Assembly (NCBI RefSeq): GCF_002804125.1
Contig: NZ_CP024966.1
Coordinates: 620,001 to 684,000 of the forward strand
Direction of reading: 5' to 3'
DNA length: 64,000 nucleotides
DNA from: Mesoplasma entomophilum
Lineage (GTDB): Bacteria > Bacillota_I > Bacilli_A > Mycoplasmatales > Mycoplasmataceae
In this document: in pieces, positions 673 through 36,218 of the stretch
How the letters are laid out: each line of letters starts with the position of its first letter
Numbering within the stretch: the first letter of the stretch is position 1
Made by a program: the position numbers and the translations under genes
Notes under the pieces: model-generated
Database searches by the model: none
The model's input: the letters and a program-made list of their open reading frames with translations, nothing else
Told to the model about the DNA's origin: nothing

Positions 673-1164
673 TTATTCGACTACCCTACTTTTTTTGTAT
701 TTTTTTCTTTCTTCATCAGACAAAGTTTGAGGTACATTTTTTTGTCTCATAACTTTATTTTCATATAAATCAGAATTATTTTCATATTCTATAATTGCTT
801 CTGAAATTTCTGCTTTAAAATAGTTTTTTTCAGATAAATCTTGCTTAACTCAATAGTCAACTAAGTTCTTTAACTGATTCATTTTTTTAGGGCCTCTTGA
901 TTGAACAGAAGGTTTTAATGAATATCCACCTTTTCTTTGATCTACAATTTCATTTCTTATACTACTAATTAAGTGGGCCTTGTTATCAAGGTTTTTTCAC
1001 TCATAGCCATTTCTGCCCAAAGAATTAAGGGATAAGGATATTATATTTTCTATTTCTGTTTCAAAATCTTCTCTGGCTTTTTTACTTGCTAATGCTGTTA
1101 ATAAAAATAAAGCAAAAATTCCTAAAATAACTATAAATATTATTATTGGCAAAAAACTAGTCAT
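673..1164 (-). CDS. Small single-pass membrane protein, overlaps helicase-nuclease gene
   Basis: Protein of 163 residues with no family I recognise. Residues 4-26 (FLPIIIFIVILGIFALFLL region) form one strong transmembrane helix at the N-terminus. The rest is charged and soluble, probably cytoplasmic, ending in a basic KKYKKSRVVE tail. The start is chosen at the second ATG: the sequence ATGACTAG both starts this gene and stops the helicase gene, an 8-nt overlap, and AAGGAG lies about 10 nt upstream. An ATG 9 nt earlier is too close to the Shine-Dalgarno. The overlap suggests translational coupling with the helicase-nuclease, so the two may work together, for example by tethering the enzyme to the membrane (inference). 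Confidence is high for the gene, low for function. Confidence 0.8.
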
Positions 1165-4100
1165 TCTTTTCATTCTCCTTTAATCTATAACTTATTTCAT
1201 TTAAAAATTTATTTCTATTTACTTTATCTTTGTTTCATCAATCAATTGATGAAATCCTTATAAAGTTTCATCCTCTATTTTCTAAAAAAATTTGTCTTTC
1301 TATATCTCTTTGTCTATCATATGCTGATGAATGATATGCTCAACCATCACACTCAATTGCTAATACAAATTTATTATCCTTTAAATCATAAATTGCTTGA
1401 TCTATTTTGTAACCACTGCAAGGAACCTGAGTTTTAATTATATATCTAGATTCTAATTTTTTAGTTATCTCATTATAAACTTCTTCTTCAAAGTCTGAAT
1501 CAAATTGCAATATTTCACTTGTTTGGGCTTTAATGTTAATATCATTTTTATTATTTAATAATAGTTGGATTTCGCGATCATTAATTTCATGTTTTTGTAA
1601 TAACTCAGAATACTTTAAAAATGCTTTAAAATTTACTGCACCAATCGATTCTTTTTTTGGATTCATAATTTCAGATTGAATTGATTTAATTATATACATT
1701 TTTTCTTTTGCCCTTGAAATTGCAACGTTTAATCTCTTTTCTCCACCAACTTGATTTATTGGTCCAAAATTATTTCTAAATGAACCTTGCAAATCTTTAG
1801 AAAAACTTATTGAGAAAATAATTATATCTCTTTCATCACCTTGTACATTTTCAATATTTTTAATAAAAAGCGCTTTGTCCTTATCTTTTCTATTATAGTT
1901 TTCATTTAAATCTACATTAGTTTCAATTTCTTTTTCGACTAAAGATTCAATATATTTTTGCTGGTGTTGGTTAAATGTGATAATACCTATTGACTTTTCT
2001 TTTTCAGATTTAACAATTTTTCTCAATAATTTTATACATTCCTCAGCCTCAACAATATTAATATCATTTTGTTTTTGTCCTTCAACATCAATGATTTCGA
2101 TAGGTTTTGAAGAAGGGTTTCATGGGTCACTAACAACATTTAGTTTCCCTTCATAATATTTATAATTAGAAAATTGAATAAGTTCTTCATACTTACTTCT
2201 ATAATGAAAATTAAGCATATATCTTCTATATCTTCCTTTAGCGAAATCAATTAGTGATTCGTTATTTGAAAATTCTAATAATTCTTCTTGTTCATCAGAT
2301 ATGCCTTCTGTATATTCGTTTTCTATTTTATTTCTTGTTGAGAAAAAATCTGTTGGTTCTAATTGTTGGTCATCTCCAGCAATAATAAATTTTTTTGATC
2401 TAAACATTGCTGGCAAACATTTCTCGATAAAAATTTGTGAAGCTTCATCAAAAATACAATATTCAAACTCTTCTTTTTCCATTGGTATAATTCTTATATT
2501 TGAAATTGTTTCAGGCGATGCAAATATAATTGGGTACATCAATTCAATTAATGGGTAGAAATTATCAAATCAAGTTTTTAATCTAACATTTGTTTTAACT
2601 GAATCAATTCTTTTTCCCATCAAATTAAATAATGAAGAAAGTTCTCTTTCTGTTTCTGTTTTTACATCGTAGTATCTTCCGTTTAAAATTGTATTGCTTA
2701 TGTAATTAATTCTTTTTGCATATATATCATTTAAATCATTTTCATTTTTTAATTTTATTTGCTTCTTGAATTCTTTCATTCAGTCAGTTTTATTTCATTC
2801 CAAAATACTTAAATTTTCAGATTCGAAATTATTATTATAAAAATTATAAATGTCTTCAACAGAAACATTTTCATTTTTAAATAAACTTATAGTTTGGATT
2901 AAGTCAAATAATTCTTCTTTTGACATGTAACCCATGATTTCAGAACAATTGTCTAATTCACTTATTGAATCACTAAATTCTTTTGAATTAATGAAATTAG
3001 TGAATTTCTTTTTTGAGAAAATACCAATCTTAAATGAAACTTTGTTTTTAATTTTTGAGTTAAAAATTATCTCTCTGAATTTTTCAGATTTAAAAATTAA
3101 GTCAACTAAAATACTTGTCTTTTCAAATGAAACATTAAAATATTTGCTTACTCTTTTAAGCGCATTTAATATTTCTTTATTTGTAATTAAATTAAAATTT
3201 TTAAAAACTCTTTCATATAAATCATTGTTTAGCTCAAAAGAATTATCAATTCTTTTGTTAGAAATTATTTTTAAGCTTTTTAAATAATTTTTACCTTTAT
3301 CACTACCCATGACTTTTTTATAAGTTTTAAGATTTTCAATTATTTCTTCAAGCTTAGTATCATATTCTTTTGATATATTGTCAAAAGTGTTATAGATCCC
3401 TAATTGTTTTTTCTTAAATATATCATTTTTCACTAGATTGTAAAAAGCAGAAATTTTTTCATGAATTTCTTTTGCACTTTCATTGTTATGAAGCATTAAT
3501 ACAAAATTGTTTAATTTGTTTAATTTATCATAAACCACATTTGATGCAACTCTTTTCTCTGTAATAAAAATTGCTTTCTTTGTAACTTTATTCATACTAA
3601 TTATATTTGCTATTAAATTAACTATTGTTTGAGACTTTCCTGTACCAGGCGGACCAAAAATAAATGTTGATTGTTTCAAAGAATTTTTAACCGCATCTTT
3701 TTGTGAATGATCCAAAATCGATATTGTTTTGATTTCATTATCTTTTGTTTCAGTTATATCCGCACTGAAAATATCAAATACTTCATTTGATATTTCTTTA
3801 AGGAAATTAGCGTCATTTTCAAATTCTGAATATGCAGATAAAATGTTACCTGCAGCTAAATCAAAAATACCAATAGCGCAAATATCTAATGGGTATACTT
3901 TAAACCCTTTTTCAAATCCTTGCTCTAAATATTTTTCCTTTGTTTCTTTTTTTGTGTAACCTTTTACATCAGAAAAAGTGTTATTAAATGTATTCAGAAA
4001 TATTTGATCATTAACTTCAAGATTTAAACCAGCTAAGTTTAGTAGTCTTTTAATTGTTTGTATTGTTGTTTCATAATCTAAAAAGTCATCTGAGTTATAT

Positions 4101-4618
4101 TCATAAAAATTTCATTTAAGATTATTTTTGTTTGCTATTAAATTAAAAAGAGCGTTGTTTATCACAAATTCATTTTGAATATCAATAACAAATGTTTGGC
4201 CATAATTTTCGACCGATACTTTATTTAATAAAATGGGTGCTCTAAAATAGTCTTTATCTTCATTTCCTAAAAGTCCATGAATAAAATACTTTCCTATGTA
4301 CATACATTCTTGATTTTTTTCTGATGTTAGACTTTTATTTTTACTAATTATATTTTTTAGTTCTCTTATGTAACTATTGATTTCTATATATTTCTTTGAT
4401 TTAAATTCTTCAGTATTATTTCTAAAATCAATTTCAATTTTATTTTTTGAAAACTTTTGACTTAAAGTTTCAAATTCTGTCAATAATCCTTTTTTTTCAA
4501 ATTTATATAAGTTTATTGTTTGTGAATTTTTTAGAAAACTATTATAAAATGTGCTTCCTCTTCTAGTAGTATTTAATAAACGTGATTTAAATTCTTTCAT
4601 TAACTCTATATTATTCAT
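1157..4618 (-). CDS. Large SF1 helicase with C-terminal endonuclease domain
   Basis: Protein of 1153 residues, in frame throughout with TGA read as Trp. N-terminal domain (1-300) begins KSRLLNTTRRGSTFYN, resembling the DUF4011-type start of large helicases. Walker A FGPPGTGKSQT is near residue 320. A helical insertion follows. Walker B-like FDEASQ is near 724, GDDQQLEPTDF (motif III) near 748 and NFHYRSKYEEL (motif IV) near 805. VQGDERD is near 926 and RLNVAISRAK (motif VI) near 960. The last ~100 residues carry D...AIECDGWAYHSS, a PD-(D/E)XK/Vsr-like endonuclease signature. The helicase core is Upf1/DNA2-like SF1B. Genes of this architecture occur in anti-phage gene surveys, so nucleic-acid defence or repair is plausible but inferred. 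It sits between ribosomal and tRNA genes and overlaps a membrane protein gene. Confidence 0.9.
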
Positions 4619-4670
4619 AATTTCTCCGGTCTTATTTTTAGTTAAATATATTCTAACCAAAAAAACATAA

Positions 4671-4694
4671 AAAAAACTCTTAAAAGAGTTTTTT
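4671..4694 (-). terminator. Terminator after rpsI
   Basis: The minus strand reads AAAAACTCTTTTAAGAGTTTTTTTT: a stem with an AACTCTT/AAGAGTT core followed by T residues. It lies 15 nt after the rpsI stop. Confidence 0.85.
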
Positions 4695-4709
4695 GCTGAA
4701 AATGTTTGA

Positions 4710-5105
4710 TTAACGTTTTGAGTATTGAGGTGCTCTACGTGCTCCACGAAGACCGTATTTTTTACGTTCTTTAATACGTGCATCACGTGTTAGCAACCCA
4801 ACAGCTCTTAACCCTTTACGGTAATCTTCACTAGCAACTAATAATGCTCTAGCAATTCCTAAACGAGTTGCTCCAGCTTGACCAGTAAATCCTCCACCTT
4901 TAACTGTAACAGTGATATCAAAATCTTTTTCTGTTCCAGTTGCTACAAGTGGTTGTTCTAAGTCTTGAACTAATGTTGGATATGGGAAGAATTCTAATGC
5001 AGGAACACCATTAACAATGATGTTTCCTTTTCCAGGAGTTAAGATAACTTGAGCTACAGAAGTTTTTCTTCTTCCAGTTCCTCTATAAATAACTTTTTCT
5101 GCCAT
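4710..5105 (-). CDS. rpsI: 30S ribosomal protein S9
   Basis: 131-residue S9 protein of the small ribosomal subunit. It starts [20 protein letters not shown] and ends with the conserved basic [14 protein letters not shown] tail that reaches the P-site tRNA. The length is normal for the family. The ATG overlaps the rplM stop by one base (TAATG), giving the usual L13-S9 operon. AAGGAG lies about 10 nt upstream. A longer frame running on into the helicase leader is only read-through past the TAA and is not coding. Confidence 0.98.
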
Positions 5106-5557
5106 TATTTGTTATCTCCTTTTTTTACGAATGTTAAAACTTCTGGTTTTTGAGCTGCGTAAGGGTGGTTTTCACCAACAAATACGTGTAATGCTCTAAA
5201 TTGATTTCTTCCTTGTACATTTTTTGGTAACATCAAACGAATTGAACGTTCTAAAATTTTAGTTGCGTCTAATTCTCTTTGAACTGCTACAGTTCTTCTT
5301 CTTAGTCCACCTGGGTGCATTGAGTGGTGGTAGTATGTTTTATCTGATTCTTTTTTACCAGTAAATAATACTTTCTCAGCGTTAATGATGATAACGTGAT
5401 CACCATTGTTCATGTGAGGTGTGAAGTCAACTTTATGTTTACCTCTTAAGATTCTAGCTACTTCTGTAGATAATCTCCCCACATTTTGTCCTGCTGCATC
5501 AACAATATATCAATTTTTTTTGATATCTTTTGCAGCAATTAATGTTGTTTGTTTCAT
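5105..5557 (-). CDS. rplM: 50S ribosomal protein L13
   Basis: 150-residue L13 of the large ribosomal subunit. The N-terminus is [20 protein letters not shown], with Trp encoded by TGA, followed by [28 protein letters not shown] and [10 protein letters not shown], all L13 hallmarks. Choosing the ATG before the TGA codon restores the N-terminal 25 residues that a standard-code reading would lose. First gene of the L13-S9 operon, with a GAGGAG Shine-Dalgarno 8-10 nt upstream. Confidence 0.98.
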
Positions 5558-14195: not shown

Positions 14196-15143
14196 CTAAA
14201 TAATTTTGAAAAAATTCTCCATTTCAAACTTATTATTTAGTAATTTATTCCCTAATTGATATCCAATATAAAAATAATCTATAAAAATGTTTATATCTGC
14301 GTTAGTTAAAAATTGACTTTTACCCATTCCGCCAATATCTGTTGTAATATATTCGTCACGAATTTTTTTGCTCATTAAAAAACTAAAAACCGACATTGAT
14401 ATTGTATGTGTTGCAGATACTATTATGTCTGGGTTGTTTTCGCCAATTATTTTTTCAATAATTTCTTCTGCAACTTTAAAACTGTTTTGATCTAATAAGT
14501 AGTATTTAAAGTCTTTATTTTTTATTTTCTTTTCAAAAGCTTCTATTCTGTTCTTACCTGTTGTTATATCTTTTTTATTTAGACCAATAAATGCAATGTT
14601 TTTAGTTGGGTATTTTAAATTTATTATTGATGCTAATTCTTCAAACATTTTCTTATCATCAATTTTTATAGATTCAATGTCTTTAATATTTCTATTATAA
14701 ACAATAATTTTTGTTGTCGAAATATTTGTAATTTCATTAATTAATTTTTCCGAAGTATTTTTTGGTAAAAGAAGTACAATCCCAAGTGGATTTCTATTTA
14801 TAAGATATTTCAAATCATTAGTATATTTGTCGCTTTCAGAAGATGAAAAAAATACAAAAAAATTTATGTTTTTTTCATTCATAAAACTTTTAACACCATT
14901 TACAATTTCCATATTTGCAGTTTCATCTTTATTATAAGGCAATATTAGATAAACATCTTTACTTTGTTTTTTAATATTTGAAGCAGCAAAATTGGGGATG
15001 TAGTTTAATTCTTTTATGACTTTGTCTATTTTATTCTTTGCATTATCAGATATATTATAGTTATTAAAATATCTTGAAACAGTTCCTATTCCCACGTTTG
15101 CAGCCTTTGCTATATCATGATAAGTTATATTATTTTTGCTCAT
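14196..15143 (-). CDS. LacI-family regulator of the trehalose operon
   Basis: 315-residue repressor. The N-terminal helix-turn-helix is ITYHDIAKAANVGIGTVSRYFNN, with hinge INYIPNFAASNIKK-like sequence near residues 45-60. A periplasmic-binding-protein-like effector domain follows (about 60-310), with RNPLGIVLLLPKN and IVSATHTISMSVFSFL. It presumably binds the palindrome between itself and treB and responds to a sugar or sugar phosphate. GAGG lies 6-8 nt before the ATG. Two relatives of the same type (one decayed) occur further right, each directly upstream of a large lipoprotein gene. Confidence 0.92.
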   Translation of the reverse strand: MSKNNITYHDIAKAANVGIGTVSRYFNNYNISDNAKNKIDKVIKELNYIPNFAASNIKKQSKDVYLILPYNKDETANMEIVNGVKSFMNEKNINFFVFFSSSESDKYTNDLKYLINRNPLGIVLLLPKNTSEKLINEITNISTTKIIVYNRNIKDIESIKIDDKKMFEELASIINLKYPTKNIAFIGLNKKDITTGKNRIEAFEKKIKNKDFKYYLLDQNSFKVAEEIIEKIIGENNPDIIVSATHTISMSVFSFLMSKKIRDEYITTDIGGMGKSQFLTNADINIFIDYFYIGYQLGNKLLNNKFEMENFFKII

Positions 15144-15224: not shown

Positions 15225-18209
15225 TTAATACTTACCTAATAAAGGTTTTTGCAGCACTCATGAAGTTGTATTGGAATCAAAGTTTTCATATGATTTTACT
15301 TTATTCACATTTCATAATCCTAAATTTTGATTAAAATTAATTGCGTTCTTGAACATATTATTCATACTATTTAAATTTGCTGTATTTCACCCACTTATAT
15401 CCTGATTAAAATTCGTAGCTCCGCCAAAAGTTGCATTCATATTTGTTATTCTTGACACATTTCATCGTTTTATATTAGCATCATTAAATTTTTTTAAATT
15501 AAAAAATGCTGAATATAAAGAAGTTATTTCAATTGGCAAGTATGGTGAAATTTTTTCTAAATTTTCGGGCAATCTACCTATTACAAATGCTTCTTGGTAA
15601 TAATCTATACCTATTTGATAAACTTTAATACCATCATTTTTATTTTCAAGTGAAACAGTGGGCGGATAAACTTGAATATTTCCTTTCGAGTCCTCAGCTA
15701 TTGTTTCTTGTTTTAAGCCATCTCTACCCATTTCTGCCATGTAATAGCTTACTCTTTTTTCTCCGCCTGAAAGAGTATAGTAATTTTTATATTGATCTTT
15801 AATTTTTATATCAACAATACCACTGACATTATTAAAAGTAAACAACCTAAATTCAATTGCATTAAATTCTTCTTCAGTTAAATTCAAATATGCTATTGAT
15901 TTAGTTAAGTCTAAAAACTTATAGTTTGAGTTAACTGTAAAAACTTTTTTTACAGCTTGATCATACAATTGATATATTCTTGTTGTATCAATATATTTCA
16001 TAAAAACTATTTTATCACTTGTTACTATAAACTCGCCATTAAAATTTAAGTCATTTCATTTATAAGTTGAATCAATAAGTTCTAACTTAACTTTTATAAA
16101 TTTGTCATCTTTATTCACTTTTCGAGAACTTACAACTTTAACACCTGAAGCACTAAATTTTTTATATTCTTCAATCGCCAGATTTTCTGGTGTTTCTTCT
16201 GTTAAAAAATTATTCAAAAGATTTTGTATATCACTAACAGAAACAACATTAACATTTCAGTTATGCTTTATAGAAGTTGAATTAGAATATTCTAATTTTT
16301 TATTTGATAAAGATCATTGACCACTAAACATTCAGGTATCTTCGTGAAATTCTACATCTAAATGCTGATTTTTGCTTAAGGAAAAAATAATAACAATTAT
16401 TTTGCCTGGACCATATTTTTTGTCTACTGCTTGTTGCAATTCTTCTTTATTTCAAGCTTTATTCTTATGTTCATTATCATTAACTAATGAGTATAATTCT
16501 GAACTAATAATTTCAATATTCTTACTATTGTCAAATTTTGGTTTTGCTAAATTTCAGCTTTCAGTTTTTATATCAAAATCATCAACATTAATTACATTGT
16601 AAACATCTCAACTGCTTAGATTTTGATTAAAAGTATGAGCATTTTCAAACATATGATCCATCTTTGTAACTTTCTCTGTATTTCATTTACTAATATCTTT
16701 GTTAAATTGCGAAGCTTTTGCAAATGTATATGACATTAATGTTACTGATTGAGTATTTCAATTAGATATATTTCCATCAAATTTGCTTGCTTCATGGAAA
16801 GTTCCATACAAAGAAGTAACATTTGAAGTATCTCATAAACTTAAATCTTGATTAAATTCAAAACACTGATTAAACATATTTGTTAAGTTTGTTGCACCAG
16901 TTGGTAAGTAACTATTAATTTGTCTAATTTTTGATGGCATCATAGGTACTTGACCTTCAAAATTATAACCGATTTGGTAAATAGTTTCAGTATCAATTTC
17001 TCTGACTGAAGGCTCATTTTCATTAGCAAAATTTACAGCTACAAAAGTTTCTGTCTTATTGTCATAATAAATAGTACTTTGATTTTTTGAATTGTTTGTT
17101 CAACCATTCAACTTTACATCAATTTTGTTAGATAGTTTATACTTAACATTGTTTTTGGGATAAACAATTATTTTTCCTTTATTTATTGAAAATTGGATTA
17201 AATCAAATATTTCTGATGATGTATTCATTTTTATAATATATTCAATAGTTTTTTCAAGATCTTTCTGAGTTGAAGTGTTAAATGATAAATCAGATAACTT
17301 ACTTAATAACGTGCTTAATTCTTTTGTATCAATTATTTTTCTGTTATCAACTTGAACTTTAATTTCAAAATATGTTGAACTAATAATATAGTTATCTTCA
17401 TCAATAGTTATATTGATTTCAAAAACTGCATTTCCATCATTTTCACTCGGCTGCTTTTTATTTACTGATATTGTTTTAACTCCATTTGGTTTATGAATAT
17501 TTTTTAAAGCACTAACAACTTCTGAATCACTCATGCCATCTTTTACCGAGTCTTCAAAAGTTTGTTTTAGGATATTGTAATTAATAGTTTCCTTCTCACC
17601 AATTCTTATATCAACAGTAAATGTGTTGTTTCCATCAAGTTTATAATCTTCGTCCAATTCAACACTGAACTTAACTTGTTCATTTGATCAATGATAATCA
17701 TTTGTTTGAAATTCAACTGATTTAATACCTGCTATATTTATTATCTCATTTTCAATTGCAGTTTGAGCCGCTTCCAAAGTTACATAATCGCCTTTAACCT
17801 TATTAGCTGCAGCTTGAATTTCACTTGCAGCTAAAACTTTATACATTTTTCAATTATGAATTAAAGTTATTTCACCTATATAAGAACTTTTATCATTCGA
17901 CATTCCATTTCCAATAAATTTTCAGTTCTGGTTATAAACACCATCAGTTATTTTTTTCACTTCAGTTTCTGTTTCTTCAACAGTTATTTGTTCTTCACCA
18001 TATTTTTGATTAATTTCATCTTGCAAATCTTTTACTGCTCATTTTTCTTCTACTTTTGATTTCAATAAATTTTGTAAATTTTTTTGAAGTGTTTTGACAT
18101 GAACTTTTTCTAACTTACCTTTTACCAAATTTGAATTACATGATACAGCTAAAATAACACCATTTATTGTCAAAGTGGTTGCTGCTAAAAAACTTATTAA
18201 TTTATTCAT
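15225..18209 (-). CDS. BspA-like (DUF285) surface lipoprotein 1
   Basis: 994-residue lipoprotein. The signal peptide reads MNKLISFLAATTLTINGVIL, with lipobox LAVSC (Cys 25), so it should be lipidated and displayed on the cell surface. Two copies of a module begin W-x4-LQ-x3-[VI]-[DN]-x2-YG-x3-I-x-V (near residues 55 and 590). Two blocks of DUF285/BspA repeats, of the form FNQ-x-[LI]-S-x-W-[ND]-[VT]-x3-x-M-x2-MF, lie near 420-530 and 930-985. The closing sequence ENFDSNTTSW-x-LQKPLLGKY matches the end of lipoprotein 2. DUF285 repeats are leucine-rich-repeat-like adhesion modules; the ligand is unknown. The gene is preceded by a decayed LacI regulator and an operator-hairpin. GGGGGTG precedes the ATG. 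Confidence 0.9.
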
Positions 18210-18260
18210 AAAAACACCCCCTGCGTTTCTTTGTATTAAATATATGTTACCAAAAAAACA

Positions 18261-18306
18261 AAATAAAACATAAAAAATGAAACGTTTCATTTTTTTATGT
18301 TTTATT
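18261..18306. promoter_or_regulatory. Operator-bearing hairpin upstream of lipoprotein 1
   Basis: A long inverted repeat of about 22 bp per arm with one bulge, centred on the palindrome ATGAAACGTTTCAT. It lies between the LacI pseudogene stop and the lipoprotein start. The hairpin followed by a T-rich stretch can terminate regulator transcription, while its centre matches a LacI-family operator, so one sequence may serve both roles. Confidence 0.65.
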
Positions 18307-19261
18307 TAAACTTTATTTTATCAAATTGTTCTTCAGTTGTTTCATCACCAAAAAAGATTTAACTATTTGCCTTCCAACTTTAAAATAATCAATAGTTATT
18401 TTTATATCTGCATCTACCATTTTTTGAGAGAAATCATCTTTTCCTATATCAGATATTATAAACTTGTCTCTTAAATTGCTTCTGTATAAAAATTCATATA
18501 AAGAAACACTTAGAACATGAGTTTCACACGCAACTATATTCGCTGGGCAATATTCTGCTGTTTTTTCCATTCACTGAGTTATTAATGAGAAGTCATTTTT
18601 CTCTAAATAGTGAAAAGTGACAGAACTTTTTTTAATTCCATTTATGAAATTATTGTGAACCTCTTGAAACATTTTTTGATTTAATGTATCAGCATTTTTA
18701 ATGCCTAAAAATGCAATATTATTATTTGGTAATTTCTGATCAATTTTTTCTGCTAAATTTTTAAAAATTTATGGAAAATTTATGGAAAAATGTTTTACTC
18801 CTTAGATTTTATAATTGTAGGTTATTTATCTCTGAACTCTTTATTTCTTTAAGAACTTTAATTAAAGAAGTATTTACTTTTTTAGACATAAAAAGAAATT
18901 ATTCCCAACGGATTTCTTTGAGTTATGTATTTAATATCTTTTTCATAAATTTCGGGATTTGGTGATGACATAAACTGAAAAAAATATTTCTTAAATTTAA
19001 TTCAAATTTAATACCATTAATTAGAGGCATATTTATTGCTTCATTTTCTGATGAAGGAGTTACAACATAAATATCAGAGTTTTTCTTTCTTAAGGTTGAT
19101 GCAGCAAAATTAGGAACATAATTTATTTCCTTTAAAACATTATCAATTTTAATTCTTGTTTTATCAGAAATTTTTTCACCATTAAAATATCTTGAAACAG
19201 TACCAATAGCTACATTTGCCATTTTAGAGATGTCATGATAGGTTATATTATGTTTGCTCAT
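18302..19261 (-). pseudogene. Decayed LacI-family regulator
   Basis: Close paralogue of the intact regulator upstream of lipoprotein 2. The first ~93 residues are intact (MSKHNITYHDISKMANVAIG, HTH present). A 4-nt deletion in the A-rich stretch at about 18982 then shifts the frame; the intact copy has four more bases there. The middle holds a duplicated TTTATGGAAAA and other indels. The C-terminal part resumes as MEKTAEYCPANIVACETH. It ends early because a run of T residues is one base short; restoring it gives KSFFGDETTEEQFDKIKFK. At least two independent frameshifts show loss of function. A truncated HTH polypeptide could still be made. Confidence 0.88.
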
Positions 19262-20482: not shown

Positions 20483-23400
20483 TTAATGATTTCTACCATG
20501 AATACCTAAGATAGGCTTTGGCAATACTCATTTTGGAGTGTTATAATCAAAATTTTCGTAAGATTTTACTTTAGACACTTTTCAATACCCTAGATTCTGA
20601 TTAAAATTAATTGCGTCTCTGAACATATTATTCATACTATTTACATTAGATGTATTTCAAACACTTATGTCCTGGTTAAAATTTGTAGCTCCACCAAAGG
20701 TAGCATTCATATTTGTTACTCTTGATACATCTCATTGTTTTATATTAGGATCATTAAAGTTTTTAAGATTGAAAAATGCTGAATATAAAGAAGTTATTTC
20801 AGATGGCAAGTACGGAGAAATTTTTTCTAAATTTTCAGGCAGTCTACCTATTGTAAATGCTCCATTATAATGATCTATTCCTATTTGATAAACTTTTAGA
20901 CCATCTTTATTATTATTATTATTTTCAATAAAAATAGTAGGTTCATAAACACGAATGTTTCCCTTTGAGTCTTCAGCAATTATGTCCTGTTTTAGTCCAT
21001 TCTCGCCTATTTCTGCATTGTAATAACTTACTCTTTTTTCCCCACCTGAAAGAGTATAGTAATTTTTGTACTCATCTTTAATTTTTATATCAACAATACC
21101 GACAACATTATTAATTGTAAATAACTTGAAATCAATTACATTAAATTCTTCTTCAGTTAAATTTAAATATGCGATTGATTTAGTTAAATCTAAAAATTTA
21201 TAGTTTGAATTAACTGTGAAAGCTTTTGCTACAACTTGATCATATAGTTCATATAGTCTTGTTGTATTAATATATTGCATGAAAATTATTTTATCGCTTC
21301 TTACTTCAAATTCACCATTAAATCCTGAATCATTTCATTTATAAGACGAATCTACAAGTTCTAACTTAACTTTAATGAATTTGTCATCTTTATTTACTTT
21401 TTGAGAACTTACAACTTTAACACCAGAAGCAGTAAATTTTTTATATTTCTCAATTGCATCTTTTTCATAAGTTTTTTCAGTCAAGAAATTGTTTAAAAGT
21501 TCTTGTATTTCGTCAACAGAAACAACATTCATAATTCAATTGTGTTTTATAGATGTTGAACCTGAGTATTCCAACTCTTTATTTGTTAAAGATCATTGAC
21601 CAGTAAACGTTCAAATATCTTCATGAGATTCTATTGATGAATACTGATTTTTGCTTGAAGAAACGATTATTTTGTCTACACCATATTTATCGTTAACAGC
21701 TTTTTGTAAATCATTTTGAGTTCAAGATTTATTTTTATGTTCAGCATTATTTACTAACGATGATAAATCAGAAATAATTGTTTCAATATTTTTACTATTA
21801 TCGAATTTTGGTTTTGGTAATTTTCAATTATCAGTATTTAAATCAAAATTATCAATATTGGTTACTTTGTAAACATTTCAGCTGCTTAAATCTTGATTAA
21901 ATAGATTAGCGTTTTCAAACATATGATCCATTATTGTAACTTGCTTTGTGTTTCAATTACTAATGTTTTGATCAAATTGCAATGCATTTGCAAATGTGTA
22001 TGACATAGATAGTACTGCTTGAGTATTTCAACCAGATATATTTCCGTTAAATTTACTTGCCGCACAGAATGTTCCATATAAAGAAGTAACATTTGAAGTA
22101 TCTCATGAATTTAAATCTTGATTAAATTCTGAACATTGATTAAACATATTTGTTAAATCTGTTGCACCACTTGGTAAATAATTATTAATCTGTTTAATTT
22201 TTAATGGCATGATAGGTACTTGACCTTTTGAATTATAACCAATTTGATAAATAGTGTCAGTGTTAACATCTCTAACTGATGGCTCATTTTCAGCATCAAA
22301 ATTTATCGCTACAAATGATTCGCTTCTGTCATCATAATAAATAGTACTTTGGTTCTTTGAATTATTTCTTCAACCATTAAATTTAACATCAATTTCATCA
22401 GATAGTTTATAGTTAATATTATTTCTAGGAGAAACTTTTATTTTACCTTCAGCTACTGAAAATTCAATTAAATTATACAATTCTGATGATGTATTCATTC
22501 TTATAATATATTCAATAGTTTTTTCAAGATCAGTTTCACTAGAAGTATTAAACGATAAATTAGACAATTTATTTAATAATACGCTTAATTCTTTAGTATC
22601 AATTATTTCTCTATTATCAACTTGAACTTTAATTTCAAAATGAGTTGAAGTAATAATATAGTTAGCTTCATCAATAGTTATATCAATTTCAAAAACTACA
22701 CTTTCAACAATTCCCTTTGTTAGTTTTCTTTTTGCTAATATTGTTTCAACACCGTGTGGTTTTTGAATTGATTGTAAAGCACCAATAACTTCTTTATCTG
22801 TCATACCAGAGCTTATTGAATTTTCAAAAGTTTGCTTTAAATCATTGTAATTAATTTCATCCTTAGTTCCAACTCTATTCGCAGTTACTTCAAAAACATA
22901 TTTTGAAATTGTAAAGTTAGCTTCATCAATTGTAACTGTTGCTTCAAAAGTCATTGGATCAAATGATCTTGCATTACCTGAATCTTTAACTTTCGCACTA
23001 ACTTTTGTAACTCCCGCAAATTTAACTGTTTCTAAATTAGTAATTGCTTGTTGTTGAGTCATATCTTTTAAAACAGCTTTATTTAATTCAGCTTGCAATT
23101 TATCAACATCAATTGTATCTTTTTCACCAAATCTAACATTCAATGTAACTTCTTTATTACCTGTTAAAGTTAAATCTTTATTTTCTGTTGAAATAGCAAC
23201 TTTAACAACTTTATTATCATAAGCAAAAGTTGAAGAATCCTGAACGTCTAATGTTGCAACTAAATCCTTATGTTTTGCTTTAACAATAGCATCTATTTCA
23301 GATTGCAATGCATTTTGATCAGAAAAATCTTTACCATCAAGAGCTTGAATTGCTTTAATTGTTTCAACTAAATCAAAAATATCATTCTCACCAGTTCTTA

Positions 23401-25054
23401 TATCAACTGTAAATGAATTATTTCCTTCAAGAGAATAATTTTCTTTTAATTCAATTGTAAATTTAACTTGACCACCTGTTCAAGCATAATTACTATTTTC
23501 AAAATTAACTGATTCAACACCAGTCACACCTAAAACTGCATTTTCAATAGCTTTATGCGCTGCTTCCAATGTTTCATAATCACCTTTTACAGTATCTGTA
23601 GCAGTTTGAATATCACTAGCTAAAACTTTGTAGCTATTTCATATATGATCTATTTCGATATTTTCTGTGTATGAATAATCGTTAGACGCATCAGCGTTAC
23701 CTTTAAAATTAATTCTTTGTTTATTTTGAATGGTTGACGCCTTAAAATTAGTATCTTGATTTTTGATTTCTTCAACTGTTATTTCACCATTACCATATTG
23801 AATATCAATTTTATTTTGTAAATCTGAAATTGTTCATGGTTTGTCATCATATGATTTATCATTCAATATAGTTCCTAATTCTGAACTAATATTTTTAATT
23901 GATTCAGTTATTTTAAATTTATGTTCTAATTTAGTACTATTTTTATATTTAAAATTGTTGTCAAATTTTCCGTTACCTTTAAATTCAAATTCTTCAGTTT
24001 GGGGACCTAAATTATTTGATTTTAAATTCTGTGATGGTGAAACAGTTATTTCACCATTACCATATTGAGTATCAATTTTATTTTGTAATTGAACAAGTTC
24101 TCATTTTGAATCTTTTCTTTCATTTAAAATTGTTGTTAACTCTTGATCTAATTGACTTATTTCAATTCTTGAATCTCAATTTAATTTAATTTTAAAATTA
24201 TTTTCACCATCAAGAATATAATTTTGATTTTTTAAAATTAAAGAAAAACTGAATTCTGTTGTTGCAAATGCTCTTGTTTGATTTTTTTCTTTAAATTCAA
24301 CATCTTCAATACCTGATGAAACAGTTTTAACAGAATTTATAATCGCATTTTTCGCAGCTAATTCTGTTTCATAATAATCGCTACTAATTTCTTCAAGTTT
24401 TTTGTTAACAATTTCTCTTTCAATAATTTCTTGTTCAACGAAAGTATGTTTAATTTGAGTTGTTCCCACATATTTAAATTCATTATCTGAATTTGCATTT
24501 CCCTTTAAATTAAATGTTTGATTAAATTTATCTCCAGCAATGTAATTTTCATCTTTATTTACTTCTGAATTTGAAACTGTTATTTCACCTTTTCCATATT
24601 GATCATCAATTTTATTTTGTAATTCATCAAGTTCTCATCTTGAATGAGGTTTCATTATTAAAATATTTTTCTCTATATAATCTTTAGTTGATGAAACTTC
24701 TATTGTTTCTTTTTCATTAGTTTCATATTTTTGTATTAATTCAATTTGACCAGTATATTTTTTTTCGCATGCTAAAAATGAAAAAGTTGCCTCTTTTAAA
24801 GAAGAAATACTTTTTGCGTTTTTTAATGAAACAGTTATTTCACCATCACCATACTTTTCATCTATTTTTTTCTGAAGTTCATTTAAATCCCAAATTTTAT
24901 CATTTTTTTGATTTAAAATTTCTTGAATATCATTTTTTAATATTTGAATGTTAATTTTGTTGTTCTGATTATTTTGATTACTGCAAGAGACTCCTGCTAT
25001 TACCACATTTGCAGTTAATGTAACTGCTGCTAAAAAACTCATTATTTTCTTCAT
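20483..25054 (-). CDS. Giant BspA-like (DUF285) surface lipoprotein 2
   Basis: 1523-residue lipoprotein, in frame throughout with TGA as Trp. Signal peptide MKKIMSFLAAVTLTANVVIA, lipobox AGVSC (Cys 24). It has about five copies of the module W-x4-LQ-x-K-I-D-x2-YG-x-GEITV (near residues 53, 145, 320, 408 and, more diverged, 1105). Between them are repeated ITIDEANYIITSTHFEIKV-type beta segments. DUF285 blocks lie near 955-1060 and 1430-1505, for example FNGNISGWNTQAV. The C-terminus parallels lipoprotein 1, so the two arose by duplication; this copy is about 530 residues longer through extra modules. Likely a surface adhesin. Preceded by an intact LacI regulator and an operator-like hairpin. 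Confidence 0.92.
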
Positions 25055-25144: not shown

Positions 25145-26110
25145 TTATTTAAAAATAATATCGTATACTTGATCGTTTGATGTTGTTTCACCGAAAAAAG
25201 ATTTAACTAATTGTCTTCCAACTTTAAAATAATCAATTGTTACTTTAATATCTGCATCAATCATTTTTTGAGAAAAATCATTTTTTCCAATGTCTGATAT
25301 TATAAACTTATTTCTTATATTGTTTCTATATAAAAATTCATATAAAGATACACTTAAAACATGAGTTTCACAAACAACTATATTTGCTGGGCAGTACTCT
25401 GCTGTTTTTTCCATTCACTCATTTATTGATGAAAAATCATTTTTTTCTAAGTAATGAAATGTTACAGGACTTTTTTTAATTCCGTTTATAAAATTATCAT
25501 GAACTTCTTGAAACATTTTTTGATTTAAAGTATCTGCATTTTTAATTCCTAAAAATGCAACATTATTGTTTGGAAATTTTTCATCAATTTTTTTTGCTAA
25601 AATTTTAAAAATTTCTGGAAATTTTATACAATGGTGCTTCATCCCTTCGATTTCATAGTTGTACGTTATTATTTCTGATACCTTAACTTCTTTCAAAGTT
25701 TTAATTAAAGAATTATTTATTTTTTTAGGCATAAAACAAATTATTCCTAGTGGATTTCTTTGATTTATATATTTAATATCCTTTTCATAAGTTTCAGGAT
25801 TTGGAGATGACATAAATTGAAAAAAATTAATATTTCTTAAATTCAATTCAAATTTAATACCATTAATTAAAGGCATATTTATTGTTTCATTTTCTGATGT
25901 AGGAGTTACAACATAAACATCAGAACTTCTCTTTCTTAATGTTGATGCTGCAAAATTTGGAACATAATCTATTTCTTTTAAAACGTTATCAATTTTAACT
26001 TTTGTTTTATCAGATATTTTTTCACCATTAAAATATCTTGAAACAGTACCAATAGCTACATTAGCCATTCTAGAAATGTCATGATATGTTATATTTTTTT
26101 CTTTGCTCAT
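25145..26110 (-). CDS. LacI-family regulator upstream of lipoprotein 2
   Basis: 321-residue repressor. HTH ITYHDISRMANVAIGTVSRY at residues 6-25, hinge YVPNFAASTLRKR near 50-62. The effector-binding domain contains RNPLGIICFMPKK near 134 and PANIVVCETHVLSVSLYEF near 240-258, the latter after a TGA-coded Trp. The start at MSKEKN is preferred over an upstream TTG because it matches the MSK start of both relatives. A TATAAT box is about 30 nt upstream. Intact sister of the pseudogene upstream of lipoprotein 1; may now control both operators (inference). Confidence 0.92.
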
Positions 26111-26180
26111 TTTCTTTCCCAACCTTTTTAATATATATTATAAAGAAATAAAATGAGTTGTTTCATTTTTAATTGCAAAT

Positions 26181-32854: not shown

Positions 32855-32887
32855 TAAAAAAGATAACAACATTTTAAGTTGTTATCA
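32855..32887 (-). terminator. Terminator after lipoprotein 4
   Basis: The minus strand has GATAACAAC-TTAAAAT-GTTGTTATC followed by TTTTTTATTTC, just past the lipoprotein stop. Confidence 0.88.
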
Positions 32888-32893
32888 AAAAAA

Positions 32894-35411
32894 TTATACT
32901 GTTTTTTGATTAATTAATTTTAAAGTTTGTCAATCAGAGTTTTCACTTTTAATTTTTAAACTAATATTCGTTGAACCTCAAAATCAATGTTTTACATTAC
33001 CTGTTATTTTTCAAATAAATTCGCCTTTTGATTCATCAACTGTTTCTAATGACATTTTAAAATACTCATAATCTGTGTCATCTTTAAATAGTTGAATTTT
33101 ATCTATACTACTGTTTTTATAATTTTTTATTATAAATCTTAATTCTACTGTTTCATCCTTTTTTATTTTCAATTGCTCTTTTGGTCAATTATTACTTGTT
33201 TCAACTAAATATGGCAATGCCCAAATTTTTGCTTGGATTTCATTTTTTTGATTAGGATCATCTTCTTGATATAAAGTTATAATACTTGTGATGTCATCTT
33301 TTGCAGTTGATGAAACTTTAATAGTTAAAAATTGCTTATTGTTTTTAACTTTGACTTCTCCATTAGTTTCGGCAATAACTTCTGAATTATCAGTTTTTAT
33401 TCCAAATTTTTTACCTGACAAATTTTTACCATAAACTTCATATGTATTTAAAGATGGGTTTCTCATATCAAAAGTCAAGGATTCATTTTTTTCAAACTCT
33501 GCAGGCACATATCATGTACCTTTATTTGAAAAAACCTTTTCTCCCGTGCTACCTAATTTATATTTAATTGTTACTTTATATGATAACTGTTCTTTTTCAA
33601 TTCACTCAAAGTAAACATCAGAAATGCCACTCATTGATTTCAAATCAGATTCTACTTGTTTTTGTAAATTGGTTTCTTGCCCTTGTTTTCAATTATAATT
33701 ATTTTGAATATTACTTAACGTTTCATTTATACTATCTGAAATATTAACTTCGGCTTTTGAAATTAATGTAAAAATTGAAACTATTTCTCCGTTTAATTTT
33801 AAACCTATTTGCACTTTAGCCTTTTCAGGTAGTGTCTTTATAAATTTATAATAAAATGTAAATTTCTGTTCATCTTTAGAATCATGAACTAGTTTAATTT
33901 CTACATATGTTGAAACTGGAAAAGAATTTTCAATTCCTTGAAGTTGTGAAGTAATTTCAAGATTATCTCCCTTAGCTTTATCAAAATCTTTCATCATAAT
34001 ATCTAAAGTTGTTTCATGATTTAAATATCATCCATATTCTGGTTCTAAATTAGAAACTATTTCAGGTTTTGCTAATATTGATGTTGAGAATTCTATTCCA
34101 TATTCTTTTTCTTCTTCATCTCAAACTTTAATCACTGTTTGAATATTTTTATTGTCATTAGCAACTAATGAAATTTTACCATCAGTATAAGATGCTTCTA
34201 TTGAAGAATCATCTGAACTAACAGATATTTTCTTATTAGTTAAATTTTTGCCCTTTAAATCAATTGATATTTTATTGTTTTTTCTCATATCAATCGTTTG
34301 ATTTTCAATCTTCTCAAAAATTGCAGATTCATATTTTAATAGTTTTCCACTTATTGAAGTTGGCCCAAAGAAATCATTTGAGTATGTTAATTTAACATTG
34401 TATTTTAATGCTGCCTCGTCTTCTCAAGAAAACTCAGCATTTAATATTCCATCAATTTTTAAGTTAGATTCAACTTCACTTTTTGCTGAAACTACACTTT
34501 TATATTCTTTTGACTCAAAAATATTCTTAGCTGTTTTAACAGCTTCTGTTAAGTTGGTTTTAAGTTGTATAACTCCTTCAATTTTTTCAGGACCTTTGCT
34601 TTTCTCATCATATTTAATTGAAATAGTGTAGTTATAAGGTGCTCATTGATCCCAAACTAAACTTGTATTTTTTATACCTTCAATATTTTCAAAAGTTGAT
34701 TTGATAAATTTCGCAGCAGCAGTTTTTGACTCATATTTTTTATTACCATTGGTGACTAATTGATTAGCCGCATAAATATCAGTGCTTAAATTATTTTTTA
34801 AATTTATAGAAACTTCTTGTTTTTCTGGTCCTTCAACATTATCCCTATAACTTAAACTGACTTCAAATTTTAATTCATTTCTTGTTGTTGCTATTCTAAC
34901 AACGCTAACTTGTTCAACACCAGTAATCGATTTAAATTTAACTCTAATACTTTCTTTTGCCTCATCTTCATTATCATAATAAGACATGCTCAATTCTTTA
35001 GCAACTTCACTTACGTTTTTTTCGTTGTTAATTTTAATTGCTACATCAAACTCTCCAACTGACGCTTTTTGTCATACATAGCCTTTTTTTAATTTTGCCA
35101 TAATATGAATAGATGAAGTAGAATCACTTCCATATACACTACCTGTTAATAATTCTATTCCCTCGGTTTTTCAATCAGTTTTATTTTGAATATTTTTTAT
35201 TGCTTCTTCTTTGCTATTGAATGCTCCGTTTTCATCCAAATATTTTTGAATTTCTGCTTTTAATAGTACTTGGCTGGTTTCCTTATCAGCCGTTTTTGTA
35301 TCTTTTGTTCCGCCTTTATTTTTATCACCCTTAAAAGAACAAGACACAATTGTTGCGCTTGCTCCTCCAACAATACTAACCGCAGCTAGTAAAGTAATTG
35401 TTTTTTTTCAT
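32894..35411 (-). CDS. Surface lipoprotein 4, start out of frame at an A8 tract
   Basis: About 838 residues once the frame is corrected. The only good start (ATG at 35411, GAGG 8 nt upstream) is followed by eight A residues and then runs into a TAG after 11 codons. With seven A residues it reads MKKTITLLAAVSIVGGASAT and then lipobox IVSC, a textbook lipoprotein signal. The downstream frame is open to the TAA. The body has repeated beta-rich ~75-residue units (LSYRDNVEGPEKQEVSINLK, IKYDEKSKGPEKIEGVIQLK) and late segments resembling bacterial immunoglobulin-like folds. No named family. It is co-transcribed with the membrane protein upstream. This may be a phase-variable OFF state, a recent pseudogene or a sequencing error. 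Confidence 0.75.
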
Positions 35412-35447
35412 TTCCCTAACCTCTTTCGTTTTATTTTATAAATAAAA

Positions 35448-36185: not shown

Positions 36186-36218
36186 TTTAAAAAAATAAAA
36201 AAAGCACATAAGTGCTTA
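36186..36218 (-). terminator. Terminator of the tRNA array
   Basis: The minus strand has AAGCACTTATGTGCTT followed by TTTTTATTTTTTT, about 12 nt after tRNA-Phe. Confidence 0.88.

Follow-up and report, generated by a model that had tools for sequence, protein, structure and literature searches.

Surface lipoproteins that are switched by slippage in poly-A tracts are known from mycoplasmas of vertebrates, where immune escape is the usual explanation. For the vaa adhesin gene of Mycoplasma hominis, a 5' poly-A tract of eight residues (A8) is described as giving the ON state and A7 or A9 the OFF state, with switching at 1e-3 to 1e-4 (PMC524362). In Mycoplasma fermentans p78, the loss of one A from an A7 near the 5' end of this lipoprotein gene leads to inactivation, as told in PMC2831843, and in Mycoplasma agalactiae differences between strains in A6 and A7 tracts are reported to set whether lipoprotein frames are intact (PMC2824730). 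Comparable tracts have been described elsewhere. A frameshift in the 5' A tract of Listeria monocytogenes inlA, reported at a rate of about 1e-7, leaves a truncated product of 8 residues and was proposed as a general inactivation device, and swrA of Bacillus subtilis switches by 5' poly-A frameshift between A8 and A9 at asymmetric rates, given as 1e-4 to 1e-5 (both in PMC2831843). Among titles and abstract openings outside the subscription journals, we found no report of phase variation in Mesoplasma.

Here we analyze a stretch of 64,000 nucleotides of the genome of Mesoplasma entomophilum TAC (contig NZ_CP024966.1, positions 620,001 to 684,000), referred to below as the window. An initial annotation of this DNA had pointed to an A8 tract at the start of a lipoprotein gene as a possible phase switch.

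Results

The start codon and the lipoprotein gene are in different frames

Plus-strand positions 35401 to 35408 of the window are eight T residues, and the minus strand therefore reads ATG followed by eight A residues. The position and length of the tract and its reading, with a stop after 11 codons, are all confirmed in the sequence as the initial annotation had given them. The features of the locus are as follows.

35409 to 35411, minus strand: ATG start codon, from the sequence, kept across the 6 aligned species
35401 to 35408, minus strand: A8 tract immediately 3' of the ATG; A7 or AAAAAG in the 5 nondecayed congeneric orthologs
35420 to 35425, minus strand: Shine-Dalgarno-like AAGAGG, from sequence and alignment, putatively functional
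35376 to 35411, minus strand: 11-codon ORF and stop, translated from the ATG as sequenced
32894 to 35408, minus strand: lipoprotein frame, beside the ATG frame, with signal peptide, lipobox IVSC and then about 815 residues
35448 to 36143, minus strand: upstream 231-aa ORF, probably a membrane protein and likely cotranscribed
32862 to 32886, minus strand: terminator-like hairpin immediately 3' of the lipoprotein stop, from a terminator scan
36202 to 36217, minus strand: terminator-like hairpin separating the tRNA cluster from the two-gene unit, from the same scan

Translation from the ATG yields MKKNNYFTSCG and then a stop. The adjacent frame encodes KKTITLLAAVSIVGGASATIVSC and is open down to 32894 with no other break; counted from the ATG it comprises about 838 codons, as had been claimed, and from its first GTG (35347) it comprises 817 amino acids. 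It contains 14 TGA codons, which specify Trp under code 4. By eye, this frame displays the traits of a lipoprotein, namely, an N-terminal Lys, a hydrophobic stretch, a lipobox with its Cys (IVSC; Cys codon at 35341 to 35339, minus strand), and KK...TLLAAVSIVGGASATIVSC. The signal peptide and lipobox that the initial annotation had placed next to the ATG frame were thus found there, and both are likewise present in the in-frame orthologs. The 6 species compared can be aligned at both the ATG and the GAGG element (35420 to 35423), the latter being AAGG in M. chauliocola. As in contingency genes, a 5' coding simple-repeat tract, here the A8 after the ATG, sets the reading frame.

Judging from spacing and terminators, the lipoprotein gene and the 231-aa ORF upstream of it seem to form a two-gene unit. 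The terminator scan found 4 terminator-like sites, compared with 0.7 expected in shuffles. The 231-aa ORF had 0 matches in Pfam and 0 in NCBIfam.

Other parts of the window also attracted attention. Between 14196 and 26122, three ORFs with a common regulator-like N terminus, ITYHDI...GTVSRYF (14196 to 15143, the short 18923 to 19261, and 25145 to 26122), alternate with two PARCEL-repeat (DUF285-type) lipoprotein ORFs (15225 to 18290 and 20483 to 25054). The regulator-like ORFs may be of the LacI type. A 1209-aa ORF at 1157 to 4786 has a body that is unmatched in the syntenic 71-kb stretches of three congeners; the congeners match it over the first 31 to 40 residues alone, a part in overlap with the neighboring ORF at 4710 to 5105.

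The extra A is confined to the window genome among the genomes compared

The window genome (G000) was compared with those of M. tabanidae (G001), M. chauliocola (G002), M. coleopterae BARC 779 (G003), M. florum L1 (G004), M. melaleucae (G005), and a further congener (G006), with one genome per species. The lipoprotein gene is found in 7/7 Mesoplasma genomes searched and adjoins the tRNA cluster at the loci checked. Its start is in frame in 5 of the 6 congeners, and these are all 5 of the nondecayed orthologs. The ATG is followed by A7 in M. florum, M. coleopterae, and M. chauliocola (3/5) and by AAAAAG in M. tabanidae and G006 (2/5). The M. melaleucae ortholog has A6 and is out of frame, being a decayed pseudogene full of stops. 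That species carries two neighboring copies of the gene (L013 and L018/L021), both decayed and with many stops.

Alignment of the starts needs one gap, opposite the extra A of the window, and the extra A occurs in the window genome only. Since the 5 nondecayed congeneric orthologs are in frame and a single gap suffices, A8 is a derived state that is restricted to the window genome among those compared. Preservation of the tract by selection across relatives, which is characteristic of contingency genes without being an absolute requirement of the class, was not found.

The remainder of the gene is intact and constrained

The initial annotation held that its reading would fall if the downstream frame were full of other disruptions. 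These were sought, and no second lesion was found in the remaining 2.5 kb of the gene. For the entomophilum branch, the 621 codons that the gene shares with its M. coleopterae and M. florum orthologs give a dS of 0.290 and a dN of 0.066, a ratio of 0.23. The absence of further damage, together with this ratio, indicates that the A8 lesion is young. Had the gene been neutral along the whole entomophilum branch, about 168 indels would be expected from the M. florum ratio of indels to substitutions (23.1 to 97.8), an estimate that assumes M. florum rates, evenly spread indels, and no constraint. None beyond the A8 was seen, and an OFF state lasting more than about 2% of the branch is therefore unlikely. 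Apart from its start, then, the gene is intact (open for at least 817 codons) and constrained, as a contingency gene would be. On the same two grounds, we rejected the possibility that it is a pseudogene, in contrast to the M. melaleucae copy with its many stops.

Predicted structure and variability of the lipoprotein

The lipoprotein had 0 Pfam and 0 NCBIfam matches at 1e-3, with only chance-level Pfam matches at E values up to 1, and 0 matches among PDB sequences. A search for further copies in the genome_contigs and viral_contigs sets found no relative, a result that is uninformative since the genus seems to be absent from these sets. An AlphaFold2 model built from 6 orthologs (mean pLDDT, 80; pTM, 0.36) predicts repeated modules of a helix pair plus beta structure in the first 340 residues and Ig-like beta domains beyond. 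All that a fold search returned were long rods of the Ig-like and cadherin-like kinds, at TM scores of 0.1 to 0.2. Model residues 340 to 426 matched an S-layer SbsC domain (Z, 10.4; 80 residues; 2.1 Å) and model residues 711 to 814 matched a CatSper epsilon-type chain (Z, 10.6; 99 residues; 2.5 Å), both at the domain level only and with 9 to 13% identity. What these matches to the predicted model describe is a shape, and no relative is identified by them.

The C terminus is hypervariable, with 9 to 39% identity in 100-column blocks over the last approximately 160 alignment columns. At the other end, the M. florum (L008) and G006 (L011) proteins share 98% identity in the first 100 columns, compared with 49 to 82% over columns 101 to 700. 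The corresponding nucleotide identity is 99% over about 200 bases, while the gene is otherwise 72 to 88% identical in the blocks compared. The simplest reading of this shared 5' stretch is that it is a recombined segment.

The M. coleopterae ortholog has a frameshift of its own

The M. coleopterae ortholog starts in frame but carries a frameshift in an A8 run that follows codon 618 in an 817-codon frame. The lesion lies three quarters of the way along, and about 194 codons past it are intact in the next frame. Its position is G003:C1 about 605508 (L010 1495-1510), and it truncates the lipoprotein before the hypervariable C terminus. At this place the window reads G-A7-T, and the other orthologs have interrupted A stretches.

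33486 to 33492, minus strand: A7 run matching the place of the M. coleopterae frameshift, by alignment, at an offset of 1919 from the ATG

Three control comparisons were performed for frame changes in other genes. All are blind to lesions as close to a start as the window A8, where the first of them gave no flag. In that comparison, ORFs of relatives were compared with the window; 45/63 (M. coleopterae), 39/60 (M. florum), and 36/60 (M. tabanidae) were matched. Frame-change flags numbered 0, 2, and 3, respectively, and none was genuine on inspection or by type. These 5 flags, two of which were inspected, were judged to be tRNA-cluster ORFs or overextended 5' ends. In the reverse comparison, window ORFs were compared with the three relatives (39, 42, and 40 matched of 47), and the sole genuine internal frame change was that of the lipoprotein gene in M. 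coleopterae; there were 2 other flags. In the third, a further 200 kb each of M. entomophilum, M. coleopterae, and M. florum were compared pairwise. Matches numbered 106/133 and 130/165 against M. entomophilum, 135/173 and 111/133 against M. coleopterae, and 110/173 and 112/165 against M. florum, and the flags were 1, 1, 0, 1, 2, and 3 (8 in total). One flag, on a 172-aa ORF, was judged on inspection to mark a nongene, and the flags on an 86/94-aa pair were set aside from length and overlap position only. In M. florum L1, a membrane-protein gene of 694 aa seems to be frameshifted at a T7 run close to its 5' end (G004:C1 about 431739-431760, L100); the gene is intact in M. entomophilum and M. 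coleopterae.

In the sampled genes of M. entomophilum and M. coleopterae, there were no homopolymer lesions beyond those in the lipoprotein gene. This gene makes up about 1.0% of the sampled M. entomophilum coding length, so that two independent random lesions would coincide there about 1 time in 100, a post hoc figure. Such a coincidence would be given either by a gene that is easily dispensed with or by a contingency gene and does not discriminate between them.

The window tract is unusual in frame rather than in length

The window contains 20 A/T runs of at least 8 bases, whereas a first-order Markov chain predicts about 78, and run numbers fall from 105 at A7 to 19 at A8 and 1 longer. This shortfall and the steep drop with length indicate that long runs are selected against, as is reported for bacteria at large (PMC1088944). 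Open ORFs contain 14 of the 20 runs; in one case, a 150-aa ORF (5105 to 5557), the run lies 36 bases from the start. From its opening sequence, we take that ORF to encode ribosomal protein L13.

The whole genome has 13 sites of ATG followed by A8 (one of them A9), compared with 3 for the reversed pattern. Of these, the window site alone marks the start of a lipoprotein gene, and no other start led by a ribosome site is out of frame. Across the 7 genomes, 17 GAGG-led sites of ATG followed by A7 or more include the in-frame starts of several lipoproteins, those of an essential-looking, presumably polA-like gene in each of two species, and that of a presumably ldh-like gene. The same genomes hold 7 AGG-led sites of ATG followed by A8, of which 5 look like real gene starts. 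The window's alone is out of frame; in the 4 remaining, none of which belongs to a lipoprotein, the frame is kept. The frame state, rather than the length of the tract, is what is unusual at the window site.

Mismatch repair and slippage

No match to MutS (PF01624, MutS_I) was found in the genome, whereas 11/14 control genomes were positive. The indel rate of M. florum, at 23.1e-10 per site per generation, is the highest of the seven prokaryotes in Table 1 of PMC4978911. When all M. florum indels are assigned to A/T runs of at least 8, the mean is 7.4e-6 per tract per generation, which is an upper bound; the same assignment to runs of at least 7 gives 1.2e-6. The bound is an average per tract, from which a single tract could deviate.

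Discussion

We favor, with a probability of roughly 0.55, the reading that slippage recently made this A8, turning OFF a dispensable, recombining surface gene; the allele would be reversible in principle and no dedicated high-frequency switch. Replication slippage would have added a single A, which comparison reveals, to the start-proximal A run. Ribosomes starting from the conserved ATG would make the 11-residue peptide and then stop, and the large surface lipoprotein would be absent from the A8 allele or made at a trace level. Since the genome has no MutS match, slips would escape mismatch repair, which leaves room for a reverse slip; if M. florum rates apply, its rate may be about 1e-6 to 1e-5 per generation. 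The genus tolerates the gene in a broken state, with a frameshift in M. coleopterae and decay in M. melaleucae, and for this reason we read the A8 as an OFF allele of a dispensable gene. Against this, two recent homopolymer lesions in a recombining, hypervariable protein also fit selected phase variation.

Phase variation proper, in which the A tract would be a contingency locus that works like vaa and switches frequently enough to be of consequence in the insect gut, can be entertained only tentatively. Much of what the initial annotation proposed did stand, namely, the out-of-frame 5' poly-A and the otherwise intact gene; the in-frame orthologs, the lack of a MutS match, and the precedents of vaa and p78 are in keeping with it. 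The tract matches vaa (A8 ON, A7/A9 OFF) and p78 (A7) in position and length, and the gene is otherwise under purifying selection. An independent A-run frameshift struck the same gene in M. coleopterae, although it constitutes only about 1% of the sampled coding length, and the product is a surface protein with a mosaic 5' part and a hypervariable C terminus. In Campylobacter coli, slips from T8 to T7 are reported to be commoner than those from T7 to T8, so that reversion could be favored. The further step, that the tract is itself a switch, found no support. The tract is broken (AAAAAG) in 2/5 nondecayed orthologs; A7 and A8 also open, or lie within, housekeeping genes, among them presumably the polA-like and ldh-like genes; and M. 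florum indel rates, with an average slippage bound of about 7e-6 per A8 tract per generation, are far below those of the vaa type. Moreover, the M. coleopterae lesion lies elsewhere in the gene and would truncate the product rather than abolish it, 4/5 of the real-looking ribosome-site-led A8 starts in the 7 genomes are in frame and not those of lipoproteins, and the M. florum homopolymer lesion is in a nonlipoprotein gene. It is doubtful, then, that the insect-associated Mesoplasma/Entomoplasma group has here its first surface protein with homopolymer-driven phase variation. Such a protein would be a recombining lipoprotein shaped as an Ig-like rod, which slippage in a cell devoid of mismatch repair would abolish (at the M. 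entomophilum start tract) or truncate (at the M. coleopterae internal tract).

It is improbable that the strain truly has an in-frame tract and that the A8 is an assembly or sequencing artefact. Although the tract was read in a single assembly, Illumina sequencing reads A8 well. The window comes, we infer, from the published M. entomophilum assembly (Lo et al., CP024966), which was made from Illumina MiSeq data at about 880x with read-mapping checks, and a sequencing error is therefore unlikely. A second complete TAC assembly, by Ginkgo (GCF_002749675.1), is listed at 847,967 bases in a review (PMC10884336) whose Table 1 also names an isolate W17 (GCF_002999315.1), M. coleopterae BARC 781 and BARC 786, and further M. 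florum strains; the assembly used here has 847,966, and the two thus differ by at least one base somewhere. If an in-frame tract were the sole difference, however, the other assembly would be one base shorter, and yet it is longer. There was also no other homopolymer frameshift in the window and 200 kb more, by a method that is blind this near to starts. Slippage of RNA polymerase or the ribosome on the A8, by which part of the product would be full-length lipoprotein, likewise has little probability. Across the tract the target frame stays open, its TGA being read as Trp, the M. florum RNA polymerase is reported to be error-prone (1.82e-5 per site), and a run of 8 is just under the run of 9 from which slippage is reported to be usually selected against (PMC1088944). 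However, transcript indels are given as just 0.1 to 0.2 of substitution errors in the species of the M. florum RNA-error study, and in Buchnera run deletions are reported to be much rarer than insertions, with frame restoration not seen there. The window tract would require a one-base deletion or a two-base insertion, and no relative has kept an out-of-frame A8 with an intact gene. Least probable is an upstream start in the lipoprotein frame (TTA, ATT, or ATA) that leaves the gene simply ON. Before it reaches the TGA overlapping the ATG, that frame has 15 open codons upstream, but ATG, GTG, and TTG are all absent from them, no suitably placed ribosome site accompanies them, and the 5 nondecayed orthologs use the conserved ATG and ribosome site in frame.

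If phase variation were true in an insect-gut commensal whose host has no adaptive immunity, the immune-escape explanation would need widening. If the A8 is merely a recent slip, a start-codon A8 without mismatch repair is expected occasionally and is by itself no switch. M. florum serves as the laboratory model of Mesoplasma; with its in-frame A7 ortholog and measured mutation rates, it makes the question directly testable.

Comparison with known poly-A switches

The locus shares with M. hominis vaa a start-proximal coding A tract of 7 to 9 residues in which one base shifts the frame of a surface protein. Unlike M. entomophilum, which is represented here by one genome, M. hominis has isolates with vaa in either state, and the gene switches at 1e-3 to 1e-4; the ON length is A8 in vaa but of the A7 type in the Mesoplasma gene. 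The likeness to p78 of M. fermentans lies in the A7 near the 5' end of a lipoprotein gene; however, p78 encodes an ABC-transporter lipoprotein for which clonal switching was tested, whereas the Mesoplasma gene comes from a single genome and has no transporter homology. In M. agalactiae, the link between tract length and frame intactness was drawn from a comparison of strains and proteomes, whereas the Mesoplasma gene is known here from sequence alone. The layout of L. monocytogenes inlA, with its short truncated product, is nearly identical to that of the window, but inlA differs in its low rate and in its proposed role as an inactivation device, and we take its product to be an LPXTG protein rather than a lipoprotein. 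In B. subtilis swrA, a 5' poly-A frameshift likewise acts as a switch, but its product is no surface protein and B. subtilis has mismatch repair. Working in the manner of vaa need not mean being a vaa-type locus.
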